DNA of 64,000 bases from Tubiluchus corallicola. Its lineage: Eukaryota; Priapulida; Priapulimorpha; Priapulimorphida; Tubiluchidae. The translations under genes were made by a program, and so were the position numbers. Under the pieces are notes generated by a model. The model was not told where the DNA came from and searched no databases. It saw nothing but the letters and a program-made list of their open reading frames with translations. Positions 12,901 through 62,500 of this stretch are shown piece by piece (position 1 is the first letter of the stretch; every line of letters begins with the position of its first letter). The stretch covers positions 714,001 to 778,000 of the forward strand of contig JAQGDQ010000018.1 in NCBI GenBank assembly GCA_030141605.1. The letters are read 5' to 3'.

Positions 12901-15900
12901 GAATTTTCTGAATGAAGCCTGTGTTCATTTCCTCTCTGCTGATGTTAAGTTAAAAAAATTACTTTGTACTTTTTGCGTGTTGCATGCGGCTTGTTTATTT
13001 AAGCAGAACAACTTTGCTTCTTAAGATGGAAAATTTTTACTCATGCCCCAATCCACACCATGTCTGGTAATGTTTGGCTGTTGTTAGTGGCGTGACGCGC
13101 TGACGTTACATGAGAGCTTTTCTGGGATTTTCTAGGTGTTGTTACGCTAAACACCCCGTCTGGGAGAGTAGAAACCAACCTTGGTTGGTTACGTTGCGTT
13201 TAAGTGAGTGTAAATGTAGACATGTGGCTTCACAAACCACGTGACGTAAACACGTGGGCGTAAACTGCCGACGTCACTCGAGGATTCCATTGAGATATCA
13301 GGCTGCGAATTGACGTCGGTTCCGAAAACCCCAAACAACTATTTATTACCACATAGTCGCACATGGCATATGGTAGCACAAATCTTATAGCTGAAAAATG
13401 TACTTGCAACATAACAATACTTACGACAGTTTATTCAAAAAGAAAAGTTTCATTATGCATAAGTACGTTCTGCCTTTTCAAATTTGACAATCACTATTCA
13501 AATGCAGCACAATCATATTGAAAATTTTTGGGCTTTCTTATCTGACGGGCCATTGTGTTCTCGGGAGATTTGGTCATTATATTTTTTAATTAGTCATCTT
13601 CGCAAAAGATTAGCGTACCTAAAATTTTCAATGTTTTTAATTTAGAAGAAAAGTTTCTTGCACTGCGTTACGTGATTAGTGTGGTATCGATTACACCTGT
13701 GTGCTTACGAAAACGTTTCTTCTGCAGTTGTTTAGAGAGCATATTTACTACAGGCATGGTTTATGCTATTCAGCCCTAAAGCGTGGGTTTGTCTCAAAAT
13801 TTTTTGGCTATATTACAGATAACCTTTATGTATTGACACGGGCGGGCAAAAGGCGTTATTATCACTAAACAAGAGAAGTCCTGAGGCTATATTTTTGCCA
13901 GAAAGTATTTCGCTTCTATTATGTGAACTTTACAAATTTAAATAGAGATTTGCTAAGCGGCTTAATATTCTTGACTTTACAGTTTCATTAATGACACTGA
14001 GTTCAGTGGGTTGCCTTCCAGAAAATATGATTCACGAGTTGTGAGGTCTCTATGGATTCAACTTACAAGTTTTAGCAATGAATCCACTTCTAGTCGGGAA
14101 AATTTGATTTTTTGAATTATGTAATTAGTCTAGTAATAGTTTTGTGGTTTGTGACGCAACAGTAAAAGTATTTCCATTCCATCCACACACTTTAATTTAT
14201 TATTATTTTTATTTTATTTTATTATTTTTCTGTTTTTGTGAATAAATTGATTTTGCAATTTTGAATTTATTGCGAAGTACATATAATGACAAGCTCGATG
14301 CAGTATAATATCAGTATTGCCTTAAGTTGAGTATCTTAAGTTAACTGCCTGTTTTCTAACTAACTTTACTTTTAAAATGGTTGTTGGTGGACTCACTCAT
14401 GGTCATTACTTTTGCCTTTGGTGTCAGACTTTCTGGAACATTACTAGTGTCAACATATAGCTTGCAAAAATTAGGCCCATTTTACTTTGTTGTTTTGTTA
14501 TTAGTGCTTTGACAAATTATACAAATTACTTTGCAGGAAAGCGTGCAGTGTTGCTGCCAGCTCCTGATGAACAAGATACGTCTGGTCACCATTCAGCTTT
14601 GGTTCTTATTCCGGTTAGTGAAAAAGGTGAGCTTTTTGCATTAATACAAAATAATCACCAGGAAGCATGGGGGCCTTGTGGTTATAGTGCTGCCTTATAA
14701 GCCAAAGGCCCCCAGTTCAAATCCAGGCTGTGTTCCAACTTTTCGCATTTCCTGTAACCTGTCTTTGCAGTTTGGTATCTAAATTTAACCAATGGTTCTT
14801 TTGTGCCATCACACAAATTATCCTAGCTTTTAGCTTGAACTTTACAACTACAGATAAATGTGATTTATACAGATTATTAGTGCTTGTGTGTACTTGATCA
14901 GTACATGTTTTTAAGTACAGTGAATATTTTTATTTGCAGACAAAGTTTCATCGAATGTTGATGAACCAGGTGCAAGGGCAAAGTTTCACCCCTTGGAACA
15001 AGCTTTGGAGGCTCTTCATCTTGACACAGGACCCCTTAGTAAATTGTCAAGGACCATGATTGGACGCTTAGAGTTGTATGATTGTAAAATTGTATATATT
15101 TATATTGCTTGGTACATGTTGTTGTAAACACATTTTGTTTTAGAGTCAAGTGAACATTTCTGTTTAGACTTTTTAAACTTGTTGTGCATGATTACATGTG
15201 GCTAAAGTTTTGCTCAAACTATCTTGCAATACTAGTACTAGTACTACTGCTGTATGGAAATTTTGCCATTGTTGGTGTCAATACTTAAGTTATTTGCATA
15301 TCTCTTTAGGATGCTCCGCAGTAAATGTCGAGAACCATGTGCAATAGAAGCGTTATTCCGTTCACACACTAGTTGCCGGATACGAACAGTGATAGAAAAT
15401 CCGGCATTCTCTCTGGATCGAACGTGGATGGCAACTTCCGGCAATGAGGCGTTTGCCAATATGATGGCCATAGAAAAATGTGATATTGTGATAATGAATC
15501 CACTCTTTGGTTCTGGACTTCCGTTACCTTATTCTACCGGGGTTAGTTTTCAAATTTTGATACTTCGAAGACCTTTGTTTTACTAATGGTATTGAATGTT
15601 GCATATGATATCATCAGAACTATTCTCAAATGTTTTTGTACATTCTGTATTGTGTCAGCTACAGTCCAGCAATCAACAGCATAGTTTACTTATTATATAG
15701 TTGTACCAGAACCGGTAAATTACTTCATTATCAAAAATGGTACTTCAAAACGATATTTTAAACACAACGAGATAACGTATTGATGTACCTACACAGAATA
15801 TATATTTTCCCTTAGTGAGATAATTAGCCATTAGCCAAAAACAGTATGGCAGATAAAACATGTCCAGAGCAGCACCCATCCATTGACTAACCTGCCTAGC

Positions 15901-33000: not shown

Positions 33001-36000
33001 TTTGGTTCTGGAAATTTTATCGTATGCTTAGTTGCAGAAGCATCAGAAGATGGTAGGCATAATTTTTAAATCATATCATAGGGGTCAGTCTGCTGTTGTG
33101 TAAATAATATATCTGTCTTTTACATTTTATTGGATGATTAAGACCAGACAGATGACTAGATGCAGATGTCGTCAAAAGAGATATTATTAAAACTACATGC
33201 ATGTACATAAAAACATATTATTATCCAATCACATTGTGTCAGCCAGGATTTTGTGATTGTTTTATGCCGTTTTAATTTATTCACTAAGATGTTCTGTTTA
33301 CATAGATGGCACAAGAAAAATAGTTGGCTTTTGCATCTACTTCTTTGCTTATTCTGCATGGGAAGGTCGACTATTATATGTGGAAGATGTTTTTGTTTCT
33401 CCTGATTATAGGCGTCAAGGAATTGCAAGGACATTTTTCTGTAGCATTGCTAAGGTATGAACTGCAGAAGATAGTAAAGTCTAATGCAATAAAGAACACA
33501 TAACATATCTTCTTCAACCAAATTCTTCCTTACCTATAATTTTATCAAATGTAGAGGTCAACATTAAGAGAACTTTTTATATATAAATGTCCTGCTTTTT
33601 AATCCACGGCTTTACTATCACGTAAGCATACAATTTATTATTATTATCTTTGTTTATTGCCCAAATTTGTTACAATATACACCAATGTGCTTTCTTGTTA
33701 ACCTGGAATTCTGGTTCAAATTAAACAGCTGTATTTTTGGTTAACTCTTGCAGCTGTCAGAAAATCTATAGTGATTTAAGCGAGAGATGAAAAATTAATG
33801 AATCAGTAGATGGACTACACAATTTTTATTGTGCTTGGCTCGGTGTTTTCCTTAAGGCAGTTGTATTTATTTTCTGGAGTTTATAAACTGACTTATAAAC
33901 TTATCTGCCATGCATTCAAGAAATTCTTCTTTAGTAATGATTTATCTCTTAAGAGCAGGGCCGGATTTACCATTAAGGCAAACTAGACAGTTGCTTAGGG
34001 TGCCAAATTGTGGGAGTAATTCTTTAATTTTTAAGTTTAGTCTAAGTAACAACAATGTATGTGTGATTCTTTAAGTGTACAGCATTAATTAAATGAAATG
34101 AACTAGTTGCATTATTTTCCGGTAAATATATACCAGTCATGGGTACTAGCAAGTGTCGTCCAGCAGCAATATTTTTTATTGTATGCATAGAGCAGCAGTG
34201 CTAGCAAGTGTCTTCCAGCAGTAGGAGCGTTATATATATAAATATTACTCCTTATAGTAATGACCCTTCCATTAATAAATATAATTCTTACAACAGCATT
34301 AATCTAACTGTGGTAGATAAACCTGTAAGAGTCAAAGTCTTCAGAAAATCTACACAGAAAACGAAAAGCAAAAAAGGCTGGCAAATGACAACATGAACAG
34401 CAAAAAGATTCGCCAAAGAGGTATTTGCAGCCAAACTAGAGTTACGATTGTGAAGGTGATAAAGCTAGTGAAATGGATGTATACGTGAAAAAGAAGAGTC
34501 AGGGTTTCAAAAAAATTTTATGAAAAGCTGAGGGAAAATCTAGATGAGAATAGCTGAAATTGCAGAAATTTGATTGCTCCTGAAAATCCAGGATCTACCA
34601 ATGGGGTCAGAAATGCAATTTGAAATGAAATAACACAAGTAGTAGATCATGAATCTACACATAAATAGTAAACTATAGTGCAAGTTTTAGTCTAACTCAG
34701 GTACCGTTATACTTTATAATGTTATACAAGAAAATTCAATTTTGTGGGTATGGTGGGACCATGGGGGAAGGGGTTTACCATTGTTGAGGGACACAAAAAA
34801 TACTTTTGCCAGGCATCAAACTACCTGGAGCCGGCCCTGGTTAAGAGTGCCAAATGCCTTCATTAATGTCCTTTGATTTTAGCAGTGCTAGTGTATGCAC
34901 TTTTATTTTTTTACTCAGCAACAATTACAGGCTACCTTGTATGTTTATTCAAGTACGTTGTGGATTTATGATTTAATTTCGGCTAGACTAGGTAAGCCAC
35001 ACTTTTTCAAATAGTGAGGACTAAACAAGCCTTCAAAGTCTTAATGGCTTATTCTGTATTTTATAAAATCTTTGCAATGTTTTCAGGATGCATTAAAAAA
35101 TGGGTGTTGTAGAATCGAATTTGCTGTTCTACATTGGAACTTTCCAGCCATAAATTTTTATCGTACGCTGGAGGCAAATGATTGGACAGAAAAAGAAGGA
35201 TGGAATTTGTGGCAAATTAATGCAGATGGACTAACCACCTTAGCTTCTACTGCTCAAACCAACAGTGCATTTAATATCCAGTATGTAATCAGGGAAGCTA
35301 TTCCTGCTGACTGTGTTGTGGTTTCAGAACTTATTCAGGTACATAATTTAATCACTAACCTGCACCAGTTACTACATTATGAATAGTAATCTGTTGAGTC
35401 CAAACATTCATTTGATATTAAAACTAATTCCGCAGAAAAATATTTAAATTAGTGTGAGCCAGTATCTCTATAAATTTTAATTCAATGTGTTTTGCAAATG
35501 TAAAGCATTTTATCTAGTAATGTTAGTTTAAATGCAGTGTAATGTTACGTGATCTACATGTAATTTCGTTTGATGTTATGAGAAGAACTTGCTAGAAATA
35601 CAAAGTTGAAAAATCATTTGCAGAGTTTAAATCTCTCTCTTTCTCTCTATCTCCCCCTCTCTGTCTCTCTCTCCCCCGTCTCTCTCTCTCAACTTATTAC
35701 TAATTTTGTATTTCAGAACTTTTTGATTTAGTGGTGTATAGGCATTGATTTAAAAGGTATCACTTTCATAAGTGGACAGAGTAGTTCTGAAACTGCCAGA
35801 GGGTACAAACCTGATAATCAATATTTAGCTTTTGTTGGTGTTTATCAATCAGTGTTCTCGTATTGTGAATTAGTAGGTTAGTTGCGGCTATATTACTTTG
35901 AAAATTTGAAAATTACTTTGACATATAACTTTGAGGCCACGATCAGGACTTCCATGGGAGCCACTTCAATAAATGCTGTTAAGGATACCTTCTTTAAATT

Positions 36001-38496
36001 CTTTTTGTTAATACTATATAGGGCCATTTTCAAGGGCTAATACGGTTTTGAGGGACTACAAATTGATTGAAAATGTAGGCAGTTGTTGTTGCTGTACTAG
36101 CCTTTATTAGCAATCATGAATCTTCTCAGTTTTTGGCATTCTCGAATTGTGTTGGATTCAAGTAAAACTGTGTTTTTCTTTCTGGGATATCAATTAGTGG
36201 TCAATTTGGTATTTATTACTTCAGGGTAAAAGTGCTGGAATGATACTTTATTTCTGGTGGTGGCCCTGTAAAACCGTGTTACTTTTATGGAAATTTGAGG
36301 TGTGTTTATTTAATGCCAATGAATATCTTTCTGTAATATCGTTGCTCAATGTGTCTGAAAGTGAGGTAATAAATTTAGAAACAAACTGAACCAAGGTCGA
36401 GCAAATTATTTACTTGACTTTTGCATAACATCTTTTAGGAACAGGCAGCTCATCATAAACTTTCGAATCTCTGCAATATTTCAGAAAAAAGTAAGTACCT
36501 AAACTTCTTGAATTCAGCGTTTGTCTTAGTCACCGCTGGTTATTTTGTACATTAATTGCTGTCTTATTTGTTAGTTAATGACAATTGTTTTTTGTGATAG
36601 AATTGTCTGTAATAATGCCGTGTGTTAGATAATTTATGTAAGAATGTTACATGTAATGTTGTAATGTTGAAACACTATTCAATTTATTTATTTAATACAA
36701 TTTTTTCCAGGAATACTGAATGATTTTTTTGGTCCAGAAAAATGTGCCACGTGTTTAGTAGCTGAAACATTTGAGAAAGGTAGGCAGTTTGAAATCAATT
36801 GTTTGCACTTTTAGATGGCTGTAATGTTGTAGACTCAGATGGAAAGCTTTTACAAATATCCCAATGATTAAAAATTGGCATCCCAGGGATATAGCTCAGA
36901 GGCAATTATGAGAAATGAGGGGAAGTAGTTCCATGGGGGTGGAGTGGGTAAGGTACTGTTGTGAAGGGCCTAAAGTTTGATAGGAAAATTTCTCAAAAAT
37001 TCGAAATGGTGGACCTAAAATTGCATTTTTATTAACATTTTCCTTCGCAATGCAGCTATTGATATGCTTAACATGATAAAACTTCGTTACCTACTGTTTT
37101 TTAAATACAATGTGTCTACATAATACTCCGTCCATCACATGCCTGGGAAAACATTCTACAACTGCCAAGTTGTTTTACTGACAGTAACTCTTATGATTTT
37201 TTTTATTAGAATGCAGAACAGTTTTGTAATCTTTGCTAATGAAGAGAGGGAAACAGCTAAGCTTTTTCTCATTAAAATTTTGAGAAAAAAGTGTTTCATG
37301 TAAAAATATATGCCTTCTGTGAGAAGAAGTGTCTGCAGACTAAGTCTGTCAGTCTGTAAAGATTTTCCGATGTGGTTGTAGACTGCATTTTTTCATCAAA
37401 TCTCCAGAAATCATGAGATTAAAAAAAGCAATGCTAAAAATAAAATGCCCTAGCATGTCAAACTGGGAAAAACTAATTTATTACATAAGCTTCGTTCTTT
37501 ATTACATAAACTTCGGGAGTACAAAGTTACAATTTGGGTATTTCACTTTTGTGCTAAGCTGAGAAGATCTGTGATAAACTGTTAGGTGACAACAAGCCTA
37601 ACAGTCTCTGAAAAAGCAGTTTTTGACACCCAACACTTAACAAATATTTGTTTTTACAATATGCTTTAATAAGATAAAAACTTACAGTACAGTATTATCA
37701 CAATGTTGTAGCAAAGTATCTGCAAACATAATTCTTCACGAAATCAGAATGTACCAAATTGTTGCTTTAAACTCATTACAGATGGCAAATCAAAACTAGT
37801 TGGTCACTGCATTTATCTTTACGCCTATTCGACATGGGAAGGCCGTTTTATATATGTCGAGGATATTTTCGTGAGGCCTGATCACAGGCTGCTTGGCATT
37901 GGAAGAGCTTTTTTCTCCTATATGGCAAAGGTATTGTATTTAATGTGCAGTGCACGTATTTTCATGTAGTGCTGCTTTATATGCTGATTCAACTTTTAAG
38001 GATGTGATAGTTGGGTTAAACATAAATAATCTTGATTACAATCGAAGGCATGAAGTAGTTTCTTTCCTAATGCAAAATATTTTTTATTTCGCGTTTTAAG
38101 ATTAGATTTTTAATTTAGTTTTCGTGTGCTTACCCTGCACTGTCATTTTCACAGAATAAACATAAATAGATCATTGCAACGAATTGTTGTTCAGGAAGAA
38201 GTTTTTGTACCAAGTTTCTAAATTTGTTGTTGTTTACTTAAGTTTGTTAGATAGCAGTTTTTCATCTTTCATCTTTATTTTCTTACTAATTTCTTGCATT
38301 GTTTTAGGTGGCAGTAGACAACCAATGCTGCAGAATGCATTTTATCGCCTTAAAATGGAACAAACTGGCTGCAGAGTTTTATAACAAAGTAGGTGCTTAC
38401 AGTTTAACAGAAAGCAAAGGGTGGCATGTGTGGAACATTGATGCAAGTAATATGGAATGCTTAGCAAATACCTGTAGTTTGGATTTAACTGTATAA
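30092..38496 (+). CDS. Fused tandem SSAT-like GNAT acetyltransferase (two domains)
   Basis: Member of the spermidine/spermine (or thialysine) N-acetyltransferase family, which moves acetyl from acetyl-CoA to an amine. Exons: 30092-30166, 30604-30655, 32984-33052, 33306-33454, 35087-35338, 36439-36490, 36711-36779, 37782-37930, 38308-38496; 351 aa against about 171 for one SSAT. Repeat 1 is about residues 1-169 and repeat 2 about 176-351. Both halves carry the substrate-binding YVED(V/I)FV, an acetyl-CoA P-loop (RRQGIA in half 1, RLLGIG in half 2), a tryptophan-asparagine pair and the FY expected at the catalytic tyrosine. Exon 5 encodes the end of half 1 and the start of half 2, so this is one gene. 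Intron phases 0-1-1-0 occur at matching places in both halves. The ATG follows a possible acceptor (GTTTACAG), so a 5'UTR intron is likely. Whether the substrate is spermidine, thialysine or another amine cannot be told. Confidence 0.9.
33956..34839. mobile_element. hAT-like non-autonomous element in SSAT-like intron 4
   Basis: The ends are CAGGGCCGG (33956) and CCGGCCCTG (34831-34839). They are flanked by an 8 bp near-duplication CTTAAGAG (33948-33955) / GTTAAGAG (34840-34847), the hAT hallmark. The interior has no transposase that I recognise. Inside it, CTAGCAAGTGTC(G/T)TCCAGCAG occurs twice about 53 bp apart (near 34147 and 34200). The element is 884 bp long. Confidence 0.75.
35445..35650 (+). 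repeat. Interspersed repeat family C, copy 2
   Basis: This is the inverted copy of 24630-24830, running from AAATTAGTGTGAGCCAGTAT through GCAAATGTAAAGCATTTTAT to GAAAAATCATTTGCAGAGTT. It passes into the CT-rich microsatellite at 35631-35690. It lies in the intron after SSAT-like exon 5. Confidence 0.6.
35631..35690 (+). repeat. CT-rich microsatellite
   Basis: An imperfect (CT)n tract with CCCCC interruptions follows directly on family C copy 2. It probably grew from the tail of that element. Confidence 0.8.
36893..36910 (+). repeat. tRNA D-arm-like fragment
   Basis: GGGATATAGCTCAGAGG resembles a tRNA 5' end with an A-box (TAGCTCAGAGG). No anticodon arm or B-box follows. It is likely a decayed SINE head inside the intron after exon 7. 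Confidence 0.3.
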
Positions 38497-41633: not shown

Positions 41634-44600
41634 TCAACTATGTGCAAGGAACTTGCGCTTTTTCCCTGTATTCATGTATGGCTTGAGTTTCCATTCTAAA
41701 TCTGCAGCATCACCCTGCTCTATTGTGCCAAGCTTGATCTCATACACTGCAATGCAATAAAAATGTTAAATGATACATGTTCTTAACAATTTTTATTTTC
41801 CGTAAGCTTAAAACATTGTTTCCATGGCTATACGCTAATTATGCATGAATCCATTTAAAGGAAATTTATACTCACATTTCATTTCAAATCTTGGCCCTAC
41901 TTCTGTTAATTCAATGTTCACATGGTCAGCCTTCTTATATATGTGATGCCTAAAAAGCAAACGCACATTTCTCAGTTTATTAAATTGAACACACGCTGTG
42001 CTTGCCCAACAAGATTACAAATTGTATAATAGCTGTTGCATATTTGTAAAATTCAAAATTTAGCTCATTTCCTGCAGACTTGCCACGCAAGCATAGATTA
42101 TTATTTGGTTCACTTCTGTATCACTGCAGATGTGTGTAAGCAAATGCAAAAAAATTTAACCACATGCAAAATTTATAAATATAGCAATGACGGATCAGTG
42201 TAGTACTAGTAAGTCAATGCTCTTGCAAATTGTCATGAAATTGCCAAGAAATAACTATGAGTGTACAAATGACAACGACTGTAATGGAACTTTGGCATTG
42301 TCAGACTGCAAAAGTGTTTATTATAACATTTAAAAATGCTGTTTCAAATTAACACTTGCATCTAAAAATTTTGACATTAGTAATGACATAAAGTCATACA
42401 GGTCATACTTTGCTTCAAAGAGGCATTATTTTCATAACATTGTGGATTACCAAAAAACGTCCCCTAACAGGCAAAATAACTATCGGCAAAATTCCAAATT
42501 CTACTTCAAGAACTTAACTAGAAAACTATAGAGCTGATTAAGCTTTTCTACGTGCTTTTGCTTGAATAATAGTCTCGTACTGTTCAGCTTACAGGTAAAG
42601 TATAGCATAAGTACGTGCATACGTAAAATAAGTGTGTATTGATTTTGATTATAACACCTACAATTTAATTTTGATTTAAGCGTTTTTGTGTGTTTTTCCT
42701 TATAATAAGTTAATGCTTTACTTAAAAAATTATTGAAAAAAATTGATTTTACCGAAATGAGATATAATCATCTTGATTTGCAAAAGTCATTACTCTCCTA
42801 CTGTCATCCTTAGGAACAGGAAATAGATACTTCAATATGTTACACACCTGTAACAAAAAATTAATTACATTAATAAAACTGTAAAAGTATAAAAGTACAT
42901 ACAATAAGTTTTACCCCGCTAATGCTGTAGTACTGCTCATAGGTTACAACAATACATAGGTAACATACGTAACTACAATGTTATATAACAAGAAAAAAGA
43001 AGACAAAACACATATAGACAAGCAAGGAAAAGGTTTGCTATATTGAGACATAAGTAACAAATTATCAAGACCTGAGGCACATGCTAAAACAGAGTTACCA
43101 ATAACTATAAGCAAAGCAAGATGTTAAAATTCTTACTCTTCGTCCCAGTCTAGTGGTAAACTTGTCAAAAATCAAATGAGGATAAGCTTCTGACATTGTA
43201 CCTGCTTCAGGTATGTCATGCCTCATAACAACATTAGACAGAGTGAAGGTGGCTGTTGGACCATATGGCAAATGAGAGATCTGAATAGCATCTGAAAAAA
43301 GCATGTATATGTACTACATCCAATGTGAAAGTTGTGGGTTTGGCTTCGAATATTTCAAATAAGGAACAAAATAAAAGTAAAGCCATGTTTAATTCACAAC
43401 ATTCTAAGAAGACAGACAAAATGTTTAGACAGTATAACTTCGAGCATGTCTACAACAAGGTTCCGGGCAAATTAAAACGAATATGCACACACTCATACAT
43501 ATAGAATAAGTACTGACACTGGAAAAAAATCAAAAAATAAAATAAAGAAAATTAAAATTAGAGGTAAACGAAAATTTGGCAAAAAAGAGACATAATCTGA
43601 AGCTAGATACATTTAAGTAGTAACTGCACATTAGAACAACAATTGCAAAAAATAAATAAAAGTGCAGCAAAACATTAGGTTCTAAGGTCTATTGTTCTTG
43701 AAGTTATCAATATTCAACATACAGAAATCAGCAACTCAGTTCTATTGCCAACAAGATGAAATCTCATATCTCACAACGATGCTTTGAATGAAAACAGCTG
43801 TATAAAAATTCTGTGACAAAAATATTTATTATTTACCTGGTTCTCCTCGATGTTCATGTAACAGAATTAAATCTGTTACTCCATTTGCTCTGCAAGCATC
43901 GACAAGTGCTTTTATGTCATGGTGACCTCGATTTAATCGCTGAGAATTTGGAAATAATAACTTCACTTCCTGGAAAGCAAGACTGGCAGGCAGTGAATAC
44001 AGATACGAATGCTTAGTCAAACCATTCTCAAAATCTGTTTCACAGAGTTTTTTATGCAGATATTAGTGGTAGGCAATAACAAATTGGAGTAACTGTTGGG
44101 CAAAAGTTATAAAAGTTCATCAAGTGTATTTAGTGTAGCAAAAAGTCTGCAAAAGAAAATTTAGCAAAGCACGGAAAAAGTAAATGTTTTGTTCAAAGTT
44201 CAGAAAATACATTGGTTTTAGTGATGCAGACAAAGCCAAATACCTAGTCCAACAAAAAATACAAACTTTGCAGGAACAGGACTCAAAATCAAAACTGAAT
44301 GAATTAAGAAAGCTTAGAAACTACCGTATTTTCCCGTGTATAAGAGACCCTTGTGTATAAGAGACCCCTTCAATTTTTAGGCAAAAATTCTGGAAAAAAG
44401 TTTTTTCAGACGGACATTTCTAGAGGGTAAAGTACAACTTTTTTCAACTCAGTGCGGTACTGAAAACAAAATAAAACCAGTTAATGTGTTGTAGAAAAAG
44501 AGTACTGGTATATATTAAAGTGCGTACCTGCAAACCTGTAACAGGAAAAGAGAAAACGAGGAGATAATGCCTGTGTCACGATGCTTGTATTGCTTACAAC

Positions 44601-46703
44601 CGCTTCATAGTCGAACGCGACACGCAAAACAGTTGTAGAGCACTTATTTCTTTAAAATCATTTGTGTCACAATTTATGCATCTTATTGAAAAGACTTACT
44701 CCCATGTATAAGAGACCCCCTATTTTTAAAGTGAAAATTCTGAGCAAAAAAGGGTCTCTTATACACGGGAAAATACGGTATATCAAATCAATTTGATAAT
44801 TAAGGATCGACAATATAATTGATTTTTAATGTTATGAATAGATAGCAAATTATTTTCAATATTAACCAGTACTTATCACTAGTAGTACCCATAAGAAGAA
44901 TTTGCAAACTGCAAAATCATCAAAATCTACATGACACCGCTACCTTTGCAAACTGCTTAAGACGAGAACTGGGATCTCTGGATGTCGTAATTGTAATTTT
45001 TGGATCCTCCACTCCAGCCCACCTGTATTCGTCATCCATGTGAGTTGTAACACCTGGATTAAAAATTTCAAACTTAAACCAATGTTATAATATTTTTCAA
45101 ATTGTATGTTCAACTATTACTAATACTCTTTTTTGTAAAACTAAACTGTATGCAAATTCAGCACGATTTAAGCATGTTTCAAGAATTTGCAATACAAATC
45201 CGTACAAGTAAATGCAAGTGAAAGAAGTCTTTTATACCAAATTACAAAAACTTGGGGTTTAGATAGTTTATGGCAAAAGGCAGGCAAATGCCAAAACACT
45301 GAATGCAACATTCACTTCAAGTAAAGTGCATCAGCATTTCCCAAATAAAAAACTATTTTTTTATTTCACACACAATAAAAATTAGTTTTACTAAACCTAA
45401 TTTGTTTATGTATTACTAGTTTTTATCTGAGGCAAGCAATACAAAATTTTAAGGCAAGCTTTTCTCATCTTTTGTATGAAAAGAATAACTGGATATTATG
45501 CTAATTTTAAACCTTCAGAAGACATAATTATACAGTAAGGTGCACCAACCTTCTCCCCCTTCATCATCGAAGTCAAGATTTTTCTGTAAATCTAAAGCAT
45601 CCTTTCTAAGATCAGTTGAAATCATAGCATTTTCTGCAAAAAAATATTCACTTCTGTTACTGCCTCTGAAATAGATGGAAAATTGCTGAAAGTGGAACAT
45701 AAAAATGCACAGGCAAAGCCAATATTCCAATATTTGAAATATTAGTGCTACTTTAATAACAGTGCAAAATTAATTGCATTGAAAGCAAAAATAATAGTAC
45801 AATAGAGAAGACCATGATTGAAGTCTAGATTTTCAAAGAAAAATATTGTGTGGATACACGTGTCACAGAAAATAGAGTAAAGCTTAAACGTGATTCAGTT
45901 CAGCTTTGAACAGAATTTCTGATCTATCAATGATCATGCCTGATTGCCTGTGCTAAAGGATCACTAAACTATCAGATAAAATATTTCAAACTGGGGAAAA
46001 CTGTTCACAAGAGGATCTTTCCAACATTAGCATTTCTGCAAATTATAGCCATCTATAAAATCTATTATAAAGCAAATTAGAAAACCAAAAAGAATCTTCA
46101 AATTACAATAACTACCTTCAACAGCTCGCTTTAATCGTTGCTTCTTCTCAGCAATAGTTTTCTCTCTATCCTCAATTGATTTTCTATACAAGTACTCCCT
46201 ACGTATCCGTGCTTGACGGCGCAGCTGTAACAGGCACAAAAGTCCTGTTTTAAATTCCATTTTTCAAACTATATTCAAATCAGTTTTATAAATTTCATTC
46301 TATTCTTTACATTCAGAAAGATGTTGGAGCAGGTGAATGCATACAATAATTTTTTGGAAAATGTGCCTAATAACTGTTTTTCATTTTAAGATTTTAACCC
46401 TAAAATTTTGCCGCATTTTGCAGTAATAACAACATGTTGCTCTATATAGTTAGTGCAACAAGTGCCATTCACTATTTTGGATAACTTTAATGCACTATAA
46501 AAATCGTCTTCGCACAGGTCAACCGGTGAGAAAGAAATCTGCATAACGATATTTCGTTCAGGATGCATTAAATTTGAAAAGATTCGATTTGATTAAATTT
46601 GTACTTTTGTTGTCTAACTTCACAAAATAAAGGTAAGAAAAACTATAACACTGTATATCGTGATATCGAAAATTCTTTTCAAAGAATGCATTGCACTTAC
46701 CAT
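41634..46703 (-). CDS. IMP4: IMP4, U3 snoRNP protein (Brix domain), complete
   Basis: Component of the MPP10-IMP3-IMP4 module of the small-subunit processome, acting in the nucleolus in early 18S rRNA maturation. Exons on the minus strand: 46703-46701, 46224-46116, 45633-45550, 45053-44944, 43969-43837, 43291-43137, 42847-42753, 41949-41876, 41746-41634. They sum to 291 aa, the length of human IMP4. An N-terminal charged helix ([11 protein letters not shown]) is followed by FDDEGGEG and [13 protein letters not shown]. The Brix domain carries [41 protein letters not shown] and FVPVGPRFE-like segments (here [10 protein letters not shown]). It ends [10 protein letters not shown]. Exon 1 contributes only the ATG (ATG/GTAAGT). 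All junctions are GT-AG with consistent phase. The 3' neighbour SSAT-like gene is convergent and PAN2 lies upstream on the same strand, 3.8 kb away. Identification is very firm. Confidence 0.96.
44324..44778. mobile_element. MITE with perfect 27 bp terminal inverted repeats
   Basis: The left end CCGTATTTTCCCGTGTATAA (27 bp in all, to GAGACCC) is exactly the reverse complement of the right end at 44752-44778. TA flanks both sides (44322-44323 and 44779-44780), consistent with a Tc1/mariner-type target duplication. The block TGTATAAGAGACCC recurs next to the left TIR (about 44353) and again near 44705, so the subterminal region repeats the TIR core. No transposase is encoded. It is 455 bp long and sits in IMP4 intron 4. 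The perfect TIRs suggest recent movement. Confidence 0.85.
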
Positions 46704-53500: not shown

Positions 53501-56500
53501 TTAATAAACAATAACAAATGGTTCTTCAAAATGAACAGAGCATTTGATAGAAAACCATGCAAAGGTGTAGCCTATATTTCACCATCCATATGTTCATCTT
53601 TCTTATAGTTCAATAGTCAACTGTTCTGTACCATTTCTAAGAGGAAGAGGAAAAACGTTGTAGTATCTGTTACATGAGAAATGAATATCGGTGATACATA
53701 AATATTATTGTGGTTTGTTGTAACAGAGTACTTGACTAATTGACGTAGAGTTGTAACTGAGCTCGAGAGTCAAATGTGAATATACCCAGTGAACATACAT
53801 TTCAGGGTAACTTCCTAAAAGCGATGAACAGAGATGAGATCACCACCTCCCAACAGAATCGATGAGTAGAGATGAGATCACCACCTCCCAACAAAATCGA
53901 TGAGTAGAGATGAGATAAGTGGCTACAACAGGACCAGAGATGATATCACCTCCACGGCTAATAAGACTGACATGTAATTACTATTATTTCATCACCACTA
54001 ATTTAACTGTACATAGTTTACCCCGAGAAATTTCAATCCTAGTAACTTGTTGATAAAATCAACATCAACTTAAGTTTGTGGGTACTGACAATTTGCTTAC
54101 CTGGCTGGATGCCAGAAAATTTAGTTAAATAATCAACAACTTGATCTTGCGTGGATATGTAATCATCAATAAATGGGTCTCCTTCATTTGGACCTTGTCT
54201 AGAAAAAGTAATAAATCATAAATTGAACTGAAAAAAAATTTGTGTCAATATTGATTAATACAAGAGTAATAATTACGTGAACGTTAATTCATACTGACTG
54301 AATAAGGCCAAAGAAGACGTTAAAATGTGCATCCATGATTTGAATCAAACTTTGCAAGCTTCAAGGCTGTGCATTTTTACAAACTCATAGACTTTGACAA
54401 CTCCTGCAGGCTACAAAGCAATGCGTTTTGGTTAGTCGCTGCACGTGGAAAATTGGTCTTTTAGGCAATATTTAATGTTATTTATTACAATACTAACCCT
54501 CGAACACAGGTGATTCTAGCAACTGACATTTGTGATGGCTTGATAGTAGCTCGAGTGCCATCACTTCTTAATTCAGCTTCTTCCTAAAAGTGAAAACAAA
54601 AAAGGGTTTCATGCCATGTACAAAGGAATAGCGCATTGAAAAACAATCTGACATTTTGTATTCAGTTTGGCTATATTATTTCTTCCATTGTTTATCAACA
54701 TAAAATCAATTGACTTTACTGATCATGAGTCTCAATAAGATTTAAAGGATGGTTCACCTGATTCACAGTGACAAACTCAGCATCAAGTCCAACGAGATCT
54801 CCAGCCTGCGGCATTTCATTTTGTTGAAGAGGAACAAAGGTTACACGCTGAGGGCGGCGGGTAATTAGAGACGCTTCTTCAAGTAAGTATGATGATGTAA
54901 TTGGATTAGACATGTGACTCGGAAATCTCTTGTTGATGTCTTTGCGTGTGAAATACAGTATGCATGGTACTTTCCAGTCAAGGTTGAATAAACACACTTC
55001 ATCCTAAAAAACTATCAGCTTGAAATACATGTTGCAAAAACTTTAATTGTGGTTGTCTACATGAAACTAAGTGCAAAGAAAGTTCAAAGCTACTTATCAG
55101 AGACCATAAATAGTTATATGACAAAGCATTCAAATCACTGAAAACATCAGTTGAAAGAAAATTCATCCATACAGGAGACACGAAATAAAAGTTTTTATAA
55201 CTAACTGACTAATATACATAGTTCTTCGATGACTATTTATTAACACATTTATAAAAAACATATAAAATATATTTTCTAACAATAGTACAAATGAATGGTT
55301 AATCATCAATCACTCCTGTAAATAAACAATGTTATTACTCTTCCTTTCGTGTTGTTTCAACTATGGATTTAGAGACTCCAAATGCTTTTTGGTTAAAAGA
55401 TAAAACTTGTGCTAAACATTATTTGTTTAAAAACAGTTATAAACCTTGTCGATAGGAGTGACGCAAAAGTCATTGAATAGATACCACCGAGATTTCATCT
55501 GTCCTGTCTTCCGTTGATGGTAAGTTGATCCGACTTTTGCGCAGCTAACGAGATGAGATCCATTAGTTTTTGATTCATGGATTTCACACACAACTCCTCG
55601 TAGTTCATAATATCCCATAGTGGCACTAGAATCGCTAGGAATTCTGTCCTTTAAAAGGTTTAAAAAACACAAAATTACGCAAAGTCCCATTTTTATATCA
55701 CACAAATTACATACTGAATCAAGTCTAACCAGAAAACCCCTAATAATACCGAACTTAGAAAAAATAAAATTGTCCACATTAGTACAACATTAGAAAATGT
55801 ATTCTTTAAATATTTTTAATTTCTTACATCATCAATATGCAGCTCCTGAACGAGAAGATTGCGTTCAGGATCCAAATTCAAGCAGAGACCAACAGGAACC
55901 CAGGGTGCTATAGCATCATCACCCTGATAAAACTGCTCCACCACCTCCTCACTGAAAAAAGGCAATTTGCAAAACTTAAAAGTTCTATTCAATAATGACA
56001 TAACTCAGACATAGCACTTGCCAACTACAGTATAGTTTATTAAAGCTAACTTTCGAAAAATGTCATCTCCAAGCAACCACTCCTACTATTCACCTAGATT
56101 GGCATTGACAGTCTATAACCAAAAGCACTTTTTAATATAGTCATAGAAAATAATCAGTCACACTCACTATATTCTACAAACCATACCTACCCATTGTCTT
56201 TATCTCTGGTAGGGTGGCTAAAACGACAATCTTTCCTATTGCATGAATTACCATAACGACATGGTTTGGGTTGGCTAGGGACATGAGGTGGTGGAACTTG
56301 CTGTTTCTGTTTTTCGTCTTCCGTCTGGTTTCGCCTGACTTCAGCAATTAACTAAGAGCACACACCAATCAAGGTTATTCAATTATATTACATTCAAGCA
56401 CAGGTAAAGCGAAACAAAAAAAATGTTAAGCACAAAAAGAAAAAAATTGCCGATAATTTTTTTGGCTAATGTCAGCAATTGCTGTTTACAATCAATAATA

Positions 56501-59500
56501 AAAGTCTTGATGAGAACTAATATATGATAACTGTAGAATTCACAGTCATAACTGAAAAAAATGCAAGTCTTCTGTAAAACTATGATACTTTCAATGATCG
56601 CTCCGGTTATTTCTGTTGAAATTAAGATTTCTAAGAAATAGATCAATTAACATTAAATTTTAATTGTGCTGTTGTGCTTGATTGACAGTTAGGTTAGGAA
56701 CATGGTTAATTCAGTTGAGTTGTGTAAATTAAGGGTCAAAATCACAGGTTCTAGATCATGTAATGTTTCCCATTTTCAGCGTGCTATGAGAAACACCAAA
56801 TAGCAAATCTAGAAATGCAATGCAAGTTACTTCTTATATTATCTTCTGCTTTTGCACATTTAAAAAATCTATTCAACTTATCAAACTGCCAATGCAAATA
56901 TAATACTATTACAAATAATTAGTATACCTCTTGTTGAATTTTCCAAAATTCAAAATCCTTTTGTGTTTCTATCTGACAATTGATTGCTAAGGCATCTGGC
57001 AAGCACTTAACTTTTTTACTTTGAACCTAGAATTACACTAATTATTAGAAAATAACAGTTTCTTGTATTAGGCAATACACAAATCATTGACGACAAAATA
57101 TTGTTAGCATTACTTTACAAAGTAGGTTGGACAAACAGTTGGGTGAAGGAAAAGTTAACTTACAGTAGGTTGATACTTCTGACAGTTTTCACACCATGCT
57201 TGAGTTGTCTGTTCTAAACACATACTACTGCGCAGAACTTCAGCAAAGGTGATTGTCATTGGTTTTGTTAAACCTAAAATATTCACAATTTATAAACTTG
57301 TTCATACGACAACTGTCAAATTCTTTAACCCACTGCTATCATAAAATAAAATAAACAGCAACCCAAAATCATAAAATAATAGCAACACAAAGTTTGAATC
57401 ATGCAAAATAGTGTCCTAAACGAATCTAAACACAAACATTACTACAATATATTGTTAATGAGTTAACAGTTAATTGTTAATGTAAGAAGCTAAACAAGAT
57501 CTAACTGAGCATATAATCCTCATTAACTGTTGAAACCTACCTTGTAATTGGCAATCTGGATACAACAATGTAAACAACAATGTTGCAGAATTACGTGAAA
57601 CCTCGTGTTCGCAACGACATTTTACTGTACTAATCAGCCTAGTCGTGAACAAATCGCTAATGATGGATTTGCCAGAGTTGACAAATGTACTATAATGTAC
57701 AAAAAAAAAACAGATGTGATGAATCTTGTTGTATGAAGACAAATAAACTAACTGAGCTTGACGTTTGAAGTTATAAACATGGACTCGTAAATATTTTTCA
57801 AAATACTTACCTCTTTCTGTGTATCACTTGTAAAAGACACTTCTGAATAAGTCAAGCTAGTATTTTTCCACAGTCTCAAAATCAATACTCATCATTTAGA
57901 AATTTATATAATTTTTGAAACAATAGTAAAATGCCACTTGTGAATTGCCCGTGTGGCTGCTATAGTGAAGGCAAAATAGTTAAATCTGCTGAATCCTTTA
58001 TAAAGCCAAATTACAGTCTAAATTTAGAAAAGAAAAAGTGTCATAAATTTGAATGTAGTTATGCTGTGCACGATTAATACAATCCAAGTCATTGAAATCC
58101 ATGGAAACCAATAAAATGGTTCTACTCTTGGTGTAGTCTGAATCATTAAACTTAATATACACTGAAACACACAACCTAATTTTAATTCGTTATTTCGATA
58201 TAACAGTTCTCTTACCTATGTGCCATTTCTGGAGGTATAGCTGACTCTTTCTCTTGTGCAGCAGTTTCCTATAGAAAGAAATATAAAAAAACAAAAGACA
58301 AATATAAGATAAAAAAAGAGAAAGAAATATAAATAAGATGGGTACACAATATTAAATCTGTTTGGGAATGTTTGTGTGTTTCGACACCTTTGACCATTGC
58401 CAGTATATGCGTCCCCAGAAAGTATTCACTTATAGGCTTGTTCTAAATCAAAATGTGCAAGCTCAATGTACAGACAATGTATTAGTCTTCTCTGGCTGTT
58501 TCCTGAAAGAAGACTCAAGGTACTGCGTGTGGTAGCAATGCCTGTGGGAGGCAAATCTTAATAAGTCCTGCAGACTAGGCCACCATTTTATTCCACAACG
58601 AACCTCAACTCTCAGAGATCAGAACTAATTATCCTAATGATTGATTAATTAACTAACTTTTATACTACTGTATCAAATACTTTGTCAATTAAATACTAGC
58701 AGCCAAAAATTGAGGTTAAGCATGAGGCATTCTCATACTCAATAATGCCATTTCCTCTGAATGCAGCATTTTTAAAATCACCCTAGCCCTCTTACTCCTC
58801 TTTCTAAAGCACTATCCACCTCCTTTCTACACTGAGGGTGTAACACTTGAACAGTTTTTGTACGTTATGTTCCAGCAAAATTCTGAAACAATCAAATGCG
58901 TGCGATCAGAAAAACGTAGACTGTGGCAAGCCATGAGACTCACAAGAAATCTAAGTCAGTTTAAAAATACCAGTGTTTAAAAACTTTTCAGCCATTACTG
59001 GCTCATCCCAGCACATTTTCCAGCCTCTTAAATGAAGGAATATGCAACGTGCGAAATACACGCAAAATGGTGGGTTTTGCTTCTGTTCCTCCCAGTGGAT
59101 TCCAACTTGAAGCATTAATGAGACACTAGATCTATTTGAAGTATAAAACCTTGAAAATGTTGAAACTGTTAGCAACATAGCTTGGTAAATACATTAAATT
59201 GTTACATAAGTATAGCTTCATAGCAGTAGAATTCATATATGTTAGCTGTGCTTTTTAAATACTGTCATTCACAGCTCTGTATAACCCATAAGTCAAGTTG
59301 TAAGACCTTGAATGCACACTTTATATTAGGATCTGGTTATCAGAGAAATCTTGTTTGTAGAAACAATAGATGATTTAAAAAACAGCAAGTGCAATGTTAA
59401 GAAAACAGCAAAGTTTCAGAATTCAAACAAAATCAAATCTTATAGGTGTTCTTAATTTCAAGGGAAAGATGGTATAGTTGTCAAAGTGAGTGCTGTGACT

Positions 59501-62500
59501 CTCAATACCGTCTCTTATTCTACTGGCAATAAGCTTTCCGCCACACAAGGTTTCTAATTAGTTCTGCCCGACTTCCGTCACTTTGCCGAAATAAATGATT
59601 AAACGATTGTGCTGAATTTGCGCGGATCTTAATTCAATTCTACCGACAGCCTGCGAAAACGCTTAATCAACATAAACGACTTGCTGCACATAGCAATCAG
59701 ATTAAAACATCATTTTCCTAAAATTTTCCATTTTTCAAATTACTCGTATTAAAATATTTGAAATTTGTGGTGTAACTAAATAGCTTCCACTACTGGTTAC
59801 ATTTTTATTTCTCAAAGTCAAATTACGTATAAACAACATGATGCATCTTTGTTAGTACAGGCAGTATGTCACTTAAGTGATCTAGTTTTTTACTTAATGA
59901 GCAACAGAGGCTGCATCAATAAGAAAATATTCCTAAATGAAAAAGCTATACATTAGTGTTGGTATCTTTGTAAGTTGGCGAACACACCACCAGCAGAGCA
60001 GAATGACAGCACATATCAGCTTTTATACTGATGGGCCCAAACAAAGATCATTGCTCAAAGTAGGAGGTTGCAGTTAAAAAATAAGGCCCACAAAATGTGA
60101 ACCTTTGTGACTACTTTACTAATGACAGAAAATAGGGAGTTACAAACCACTGTCCTACACCCAAGGAATGTCTGGGTAAAAATATGAACTATATATATTT
60201 CAAAATATTCTGAACTAGAAACTGTCTAAAATTAGAAACTGACAAAAATGATCATGAGATCACCTTCCATGAAAAAAAAAACTGGAAAGATGCTTAGTAG
60301 ACATCTGTCAGTAAGCAAATATTTATAAGGGTATGAAAATAAAGAAATAGCTATTGCCAGGCAGTTTTTACACAATTATAGGTTAAAGTTTCAAAAACAA
60401 TTCTAAGCTGTGAATAGCAACACATCAAGTAATCAAAAATAGATTAGAGTAGATTAGATAACTTAGGTTAGATTAAATTAGAAGAAATTTGGTCAGATTA
60501 AAGTTTCAAAAATAATTTTAACCCGTGAACAATACATCAATAATCAAAAGTAGATTAGTGTAGATTAAACACCTTAAATTAGATTAACTTAGACTAGATT
60601 ATATCAGGTCAGGCTAGGGTAGAGTACGCTAGGTTAAATTAGATTAAGTTAAATTAGATTAGATTAGTTTAGTTCAGTTTAGATTAAATAAAAGTTTAAA
60701 TTTTTTTGACGGCTTTTTACAGAAAACCAGTTGCGATCCTTCTTTGAATGTATGCATATACATGCATTCCATTTCACATGTTATCATTAACCATGCCATT
60801 ATATACCATTTGGTAATTAAATGTAATGATAAGTTAGTGTAGAATAATGCACTTTTCGTATCAACCTTTCAGAAGATTATAACTTGCACACTCTTGGATG
60901 AATGGTCACTGAATACTGATGCTCGCGTTGATTACAAGTCAATTGTCATAATTACAGCAGCAATGTAACCTAATCATCCACTATACATTAAGATGTGATG
61001 TCTCGTAATTTGGTCATTATAAGAGCCAAGTCATACCAGAATTAGTATTCTACTGCTACTGCATCGTAAATGAGACCTTGAACCTTGAACTCGTAGCTCT
61101 CTAACTTTATATCGCACATTAGGTAAAGATGTCCCTTTTTTGTAAATCCAACAGTTTTTAAATCAAGATTTATTTGTATGTAACCCACTATTCACAAGAA
61201 ATGTATTATACGCTTTAGACGATTTGTGTTTTTACAAATCACGAGCAAATGTAAGATTATTCTCCGAATGATAAATTCTCTGAATGATAAAAAATGAATG
61301 AGTTGGTTATAATTTATGTGAATCTTTGCATGTGATTTATGAGGTACGAAAAAATGGGAAGTACGATTTTCTGCCACAAATGCTGAGAGCATAATTATTA
61401 AACATTAATTTAAAAATCATTAGCAATTATAATTACAAGGCTTTTAACAGCTTTAGCATCCATTATCATTAATAATAACATTGCATATTGCTAATGTTTA
61501 TACCGAAAAAGAACCCAAAATGCATCCAAAAATATCAATTTTTCCAGTTTTTTTTTAATAAGAACATATAACACTTCCACAAAAAACATCTTATAACCTG
61601 TGTTTTATAACAATTAATAAATCCTCACGCTACATTATGTTCTTGTTTGCACGATTCAAGACAAAAACACTCAAAACAGACATAAGACATTTGGTTATAC
61701 GCACTTAAGCTACTAATAACAGTGTCTTCAAACTATACTTGTCAATAATGACAAAGTCACTTTTTTACAAAAGTGATCACTTGAACTTCAATGCCCACTT
61801 TGAAAGAACGAGTGAAATATTGTGACAACTGCCGTATGCACACTAGTGTGCCTGTGACAGGTTTGTTATTAAAGACTTCAATCAAGGAAAATGGAGAGGA
61901 ACGTAATTTCTGAGTGAAATGAAGCGACCAAACCAGGAAGCAGTCAAGGCATTCATAAAGCGTTTAGCACAAAATGCTGTCGTTAGTCTGTAGAATATAA
62001 TGCACTTGATGTTACAATTCGTCTTGCATTCTACACAGATTACTTTCAAAAACAATTACCCACACAAACCAGCATTTCTGTCAGTACTACATACAAATTA
62101 GGAATAAGAACTGTGGTGTTCCTGCAAAAAATAATCAATAATTGGCCTGATTATCTGCAATCACCTCCTGTGTATTGATTGGTAAATACTTGACCAGCAA
62201 TTGCATTATTGAAAAATAATAAGCTTTTGCACGCCACTTGCAATATTTTCAGAATATCATAAACTTTTTTGCCATATTAGAATCACCTACAAAACAAAGC
62301 TTATAATCACAAATTTTTATTAGTGATCACATCTGAATGGCATCATATCTTAATTTCAAGAAAATATTTTGAAAAAGAAGGGACCTTCATAGAAGGTCAA
62401 TTAAGCAAAGCATCTCACATTTTTAATTAATACTTACATTATGTATTTGTTGCAAAATAAACCGATTCCAGTTCTGGATCAAACGAGCATAATTAACCTT

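Follow-up and report, generated by a model that had tools for sequence, protein, structure and literature searches.

PAN2 alone is a poor RNA binder, and PAN3 and PABP are held to deliver the poly(A) tail to it. The yeast Pan3 CCCH zinc finger binds A15 at 60–100 µM, and its removal lowers A-selectivity and makes deadenylation slightly slower (PMC4158885). On a PABP-coated tail the Pan3 finger makes a modest difference, and the poly(A) RNP is still recognised by the core complex when the finger is absent (PMC6547884). The premise of the original prediction, that the known complex bears its CCCH finger on PAN3, agrees with this work (PMC4158885). In the crystal structure of Chaetomium Nab2 bound to RNA, two adenosines are contacted by fingers that have a basic residue after Cys1 and aromatic residues two positions after Cys1 and Cys3 (PMC3874189). 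CCCH fingers are known on PAN3, on TOE1, and in Nab2/ZC3H14; at the locus described here, it is an insert in the pseudoprotease domain of PAN2 itself that carries a Nab2-type finger.

PAN2 gene model

We assembled a PAN2 model of 15 exons on the minus strand by splice sites and reading frame; all but one of the exons listed below lie in the window (the whole 64,000-nt stretch of DNA that was analysed).

64391-64231 (extended coordinates), minus strand: PAN2 exon just beyond the window, locus L002
62921-62790, 62584-62438 and 57689-57541, minus strand: UCH-like exons upstream of the finger, from the gene model
57273-57164, minus strand: exon with the second Cys pair, UCH zinc-binding finger region
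57026-56928, minus strand: exon before the finger exon, UCH-like domain, WKIQQE region, joining in phase 0
56351-56191, minus strand: finger exon, exon 7 of the model, with helix start, Pro/Gln-rich linker, and CCCH finger
56261-56211, minus strand: Nab2-type CCCH finger, C-x5-C-x4-C-x3-H, by spacing, residues, and phmmer match
55951-55828, minus strand: exon 8, after the finger exon, where the UCH-like domain picks up again at PWVPVGL
55648-55445, minus strand: exon with the end of the UCH-like domain, by gene model, similarity, and Pfam
55003-54758, minus strand: exon in which the exonuclease domain starts, with the first D and E of DEDD in GLDAEFV
54583-54498, 54198-54101, 52577-52438, 50939-50846 and 50726-stop (50527), minus strand: other exonuclease exons, with KKDFR and THDSIED

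Each modelled exon has AG before it and GT after it; from 57689 to the stop codon, the finger exon included, the reading frame is unbroken. The exons flanking the 4.7-kb interval 57690-62437 (minus strand) are mismatched in phase (0 to 2), so that a small exon corresponding to human PAN2 QDMQELEIPQAYRGAGG should lie there; none was identified between 62438 and 57689 when the gene model was built. The upstream exons, which would carry the WD40 domain and the PAN3-binding linker, lie beyond the window and adjoin an assembly gap.

The gene is a true PAN2 orthologue. Its 715-residue product matches human PAN2 (PDB 9qtu_C) with an E-value of 1.5e-234 and a score of 783.8 bits, and comprises a UCH-like pseudoprotease domain (UCH_1, PF13423, E 5e-90) followed by a DEDD exonuclease domain (RNase_T, PF00929, E 5e-20), an arrangement similar to known PAN2. 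The DEDDh catalytic residues are intact, with GLDAEFV, KKDFR, and THDSIED aligning with human PAN2. Every match to the exonuclease part in the 343.5-Mb genome falls at one locus, indicating that a single PAN2 was found in the genome, and a search of bacterial and archaeal genome contigs and of viral contigs for stray animal PAN2 returned none.

Several other loci were annotated along the way. At 35045-35383 and 37712-37966 (plus strand), the end of a SAT1-like diamine acetyltransferase domain and, immediately after it, the apparent start of another (a weak match) share one open frame, with a GNAT core further downstream; this is probably a tandem two-domain SSAT gene. Exons at 14461-15583 (plus strand) look like the NUDIX-like domain of KRIT1/CCM1, with a sub-threshold Pfam match (NUDIX_5, E 0.001), and 43098-44062 and 46030-46263 (minus strand) are IMP4-like ribosome-biogenesis exons, with a Brix match at 43098-43313 and the rest assigned by eye. 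Elsewhere in the genome, a charged open frame at locus L025 (C1209:2315467-2315535, plus strand) encodes the CCCH finger FCKYYKEEKRCPFGAKCKFFH, whose zf-CCCH score is above the cut-off.

Splicing of the finger exon

The finger exon is internal and 161 nt long (53 residues plus 2 nt), is flanked by ctcttag on the acceptor side and gtaggt on the donor side, and is entered in phase 0 from 57026-56928 and left in phase 2 towards 55951-55828. The continuous frame and the GT..AG introns confirm the original prediction that the PAN2 exon with the CCCH finger joins its neighbours in frame, and the Pro/Gln-rich linker said to precede the finger can be read in the translation of exon 56351-56191.

Plain skipping of the finger exon would give WKIQQE and then an immediate TGA, ahead of the nuclease domain. 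The only in-frame skip that we found makes use of a tandem acceptor at the start of exon 8 (cagTGAG/GAG, 55947-55951, minus strand), in which a cryptic site lies 4 nt inside the exon; as this cryptic acceptor could restore the frame, a minor finger-less PAN2 isoform is conceivable. With a plain skip truncating the protein and the sole in-frame skip being cryptic, the gene appears, as judged from its splice sites and phases, to be built for inclusion of the finger.

Insertion point in the UCH-like domain

The finger-containing segment is inserted between ..KDFEFW and PWVPVGL, with high similarity to human and Chaetomium PAN2 on both sides of the insert, both of these proteins likewise having, over the part covered by the model, a UCH-like domain and then a DEDD exonuclease. 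Human PAN2 residues 760-852 in 9qtu_C, AEVAFKMAVKKHGGEISKNKEFALADWKELGSPEGVLVCPSIEELKNVWLPFSI..., contain no CCCH motif at the place of the finger, confirming the claim that human PAN2 has a non-finger loop here. The human insert is unrelated and about 50 residues long, that of the present PAN2 is about 70 residues long and includes the finger, and Chaetomium PAN2 (PDB 4czw) reads KLWSTPGWLPEEIG and has nearly no insert (about 4 residues, WSTPGWLP). Since the human insert is unrelated and the Chaetomium insert almost absent, the finger occupies a site in the UCH-like fold where inserts vary in length.

Inserts are common between conserved boxes 4 and 5 of ubiquitin-specific proteases. The insertion point of the PAN2 finger is, we infer, the kind of place found between boxes 4 and 5. 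A variable loop of this UCH-like pseudoprotease scaffold accommodates what is likely to be an RNA-binding module.

Class of the finger

The PAN2 finger has the spacing C-x5-C-x4-C-x3-H, which falls within the Nab2-type pattern C-x5-C-x4-6-C-x3-H, and its best match among all PDB sequences is to the yeast Nab2 fingers (phmmer, E 1.8e-5). The Pfam model zf-CCCH_2 (RNA-binding, Nab2-type) matches it with an E-value of 0.0018 and 19.2 bits. This is below the curated cut-off of 25.8 bits, which applies to a single model of 19 residues, and hence we name the finger Nab2-type by its spacing and residues and not by Pfam membership. Run genome-wide, zf-CCCH_2 gave no match anywhere, the model being too short, and the yeast Nab2 fingers as a genome-wide query gave only noise.

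The genome's own ZC3H14/Nab2 orthologue, which was located with the human ZC3H14 fingers as query, lies on contig C977 and has five fingers. The last of these, CRYGSKCTRPDCIYTHP, is identical to the PAN2 finger at 10 of 17 residues, has the top BLOSUM62 score against it among the fingers compared, and scores 27.4 bits with zf-CCCH_2. Spacing, the phmmer match to Nab2, and this identity to ZC3H14 agree with one another and sustain the predicted Nab2/ZC3H14 type. PAN2 itself is not a member of the Nab2/ZC3H14 family, as it has one finger and no tandem array of 5–7, and as the true ZC3H14 orthologue is the gene on C977; nor is the finger PAN3-type, its x5-x4-x3 spacing departing from C-x8-C-x5-6-C-x3-H. 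We also reject recent copying of the ZC3H14 finger into PAN2, given that only 29 of 51 nucleotides are identical and that the exon layout differs; any shared origin of the two fingers is, on the same nucleotide count, not recent.

The finger fits the two-adenosine code at all three positions, with Arg, Tyr, and Phe in C-R-Y...C-R-F. Although this speaks for poly(A) binding, these residues are frequent in other CCCH fingers too and are no proof of poly(A) specificity. An AlphaFold model of the finger exon alone is uninformative, with a pLDDT of 60 and a pTM of 0.21.

Discussion

We consider it probable that the single Nab2/ZC3H14-type finger in the UCH-like domain of PAN2 provides the nuclease with an additional, weakly binding site for poly(A) on its own polypeptide chain. 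Tethered to the UCH-like domain through a flexible Pro/Gln-rich linker, the finger would stack one or two tail adenosines, using Arg after Cys1, Tyr two residues after Cys1, and Phe two residues after Cys3, and would thus place an added weak, A-selective contact on the catalytic subunit. Such a contact would add avidity and A-selectivity to the contacts of the PAN3 finger, the PAN3 core, and PABP, and may help to keep tails in place or to load them anew, perhaps those that are short or carry little PABP. That the finger binds zinc and poly(A) and affects deadenylation is in each case predicted from the sequence. Analogy with the yeast Pan3 finger makes a weak A-selective contact acting by avidity the likeliest role.

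The original prediction proposed that the finger could provide PAN2 with its own grip on the tail or with an RNA-guided choice of target. The former is plausible by the two-adenosine code (PMC3874189), but a strong stand-alone grip is unsupported; because lone fingers are weak, as the 60–100 µM affinity of the Pan3 finger illustrates (PMC4158885), a grip of its own can mean just an added avidity contact. RNA-guided target choice was considered and dropped, as no feature supporting it was seen.

As regards origin, the chances are about even that the finger is an old feature of animal PAN2, present in many invertebrates, replaced or lost in vertebrates, and ordinary although undiscussed in the literature, the alternative being a gain specific to this lineage; the reading of an old feature can be held together with the avidity contact, which concerns function. 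Human PAN2 also has an insert at the same point, so that insertion at this site could be ancient among animals, and the finger lies near the ZC3H14 consensus, as long constraint would give, while its 29/51 nucleotide identity to the ZC3H14 finger makes a recent copy unlikely. Set against this, a search of openly available papers found no mention of a PAN2 zinc finger. If the finger is widespread in invertebrates, the yeast- and vertebrate-based models of PAN2 would miss a component.

CCCH fingers can also mediate protein contacts, as is generally known, and it is possible, if rather unlikely, that the PAN2 finger does not bind RNA but serves the stability of the UCH fold or the binding of a protein, for example PAN3, PABP, or some decay factor. 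The UCH-like domain that hosts the finger contacts the Pan3 knob in yeast (PMC6547884), which would suit a protein-binding role; however, the adenosine-contacting Arg, Tyr, and Phe are kept, and the nearest matches to the finger are binders of poly(A) RNA.

That PAN3 in this animal has lost its N-terminal finger and that PAN2 has taken over the role strikes us as improbable. A genome-wide search for a PAN3-type finger with the human PAN3 finger as query gave a best E-value of 0.055, in an unrelated context, and none turned up in the 28 kb that precede the first located PAN3 exon (C1333), as a loss would lead one to expect. The PAN3 gene is, however, split over two contigs, C1333 and C534 (L033-L036 and L022-L024), its introns are long, and a short finger can be missed; with the N-terminal PAN3 exons not located, the missing finger does not show a loss. 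The wider proposal, that an animal lineage moved its poly(A) finger from PAN3 to PAN2 and so gained a nuclease that is tail-specific in its own right and relies less on PAN3 or PABP, is very improbable.

We simulated the window 300 times with a first-order Markov model. The bare spacing C-x5-C-x4-6-C-x3-H occurred in one frame or another of 30% of the simulations, and the spacing together with the three adenosine-contact residues in 0 of 300; the real window has exactly one bare-spacing match and one full-code match, at the same site and in the correct frame of a coding exon. The notion that we are dealing with a functionless motif, produced by chance or wrongly spliced, to which the commonness of the bare spacing and the conceivable in-frame skip through the cryptic acceptor lend something, is scarcely credible in view of the correct frame, the GT..AG sites, the stop met upon plain skipping, the match to Nab2, and the absence of the full residue code from the simulations.

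A PAN2 with its own Nab2-type finger offers a natural test of how far the nuclease subunit can recognise the tail unaided.

Comparison with known systems

Apart from human and Chaetomium PAN2, the locus resembles three described systems and differs from each. The N-terminal CCCH finger of PAN3 binds poly(A) on behalf of the PAN2 nuclease (PMC4158885), a role for which the PAN2 finger is a candidate; the PAN3 finger, however, is on the partner subunit, at the N terminus, with the yeast spacing C-x8-C-x6-C-x3-H and in two copies per complex. With Nab2/ZC3H14 it shares the C-x5-C-x4-C-x3-H spacing, the basic residue after Cys1, the aromatic residues at the adenosine-stacking positions, and the nearest sequence matches, but Nab2/ZC3H14 proteins have 5–7 tandem fingers and no nuclease, whereas here one finger lies inside a nuclease subunit. 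The DEDD deadenylase TOE1 (Caf1z) illustrates that a C3H finger can be part of such an enzyme itself (PMC13316410). In TOE1 the finger is separate and C-terminal, with the spacing C-x8-C-x5-C-x3-H (C300, C309, C315, H319; PMC13316410), and the enzyme is a nuclear snRNA-processing enzyme without a UCH-like domain, the domain into which the PAN2 finger is built.
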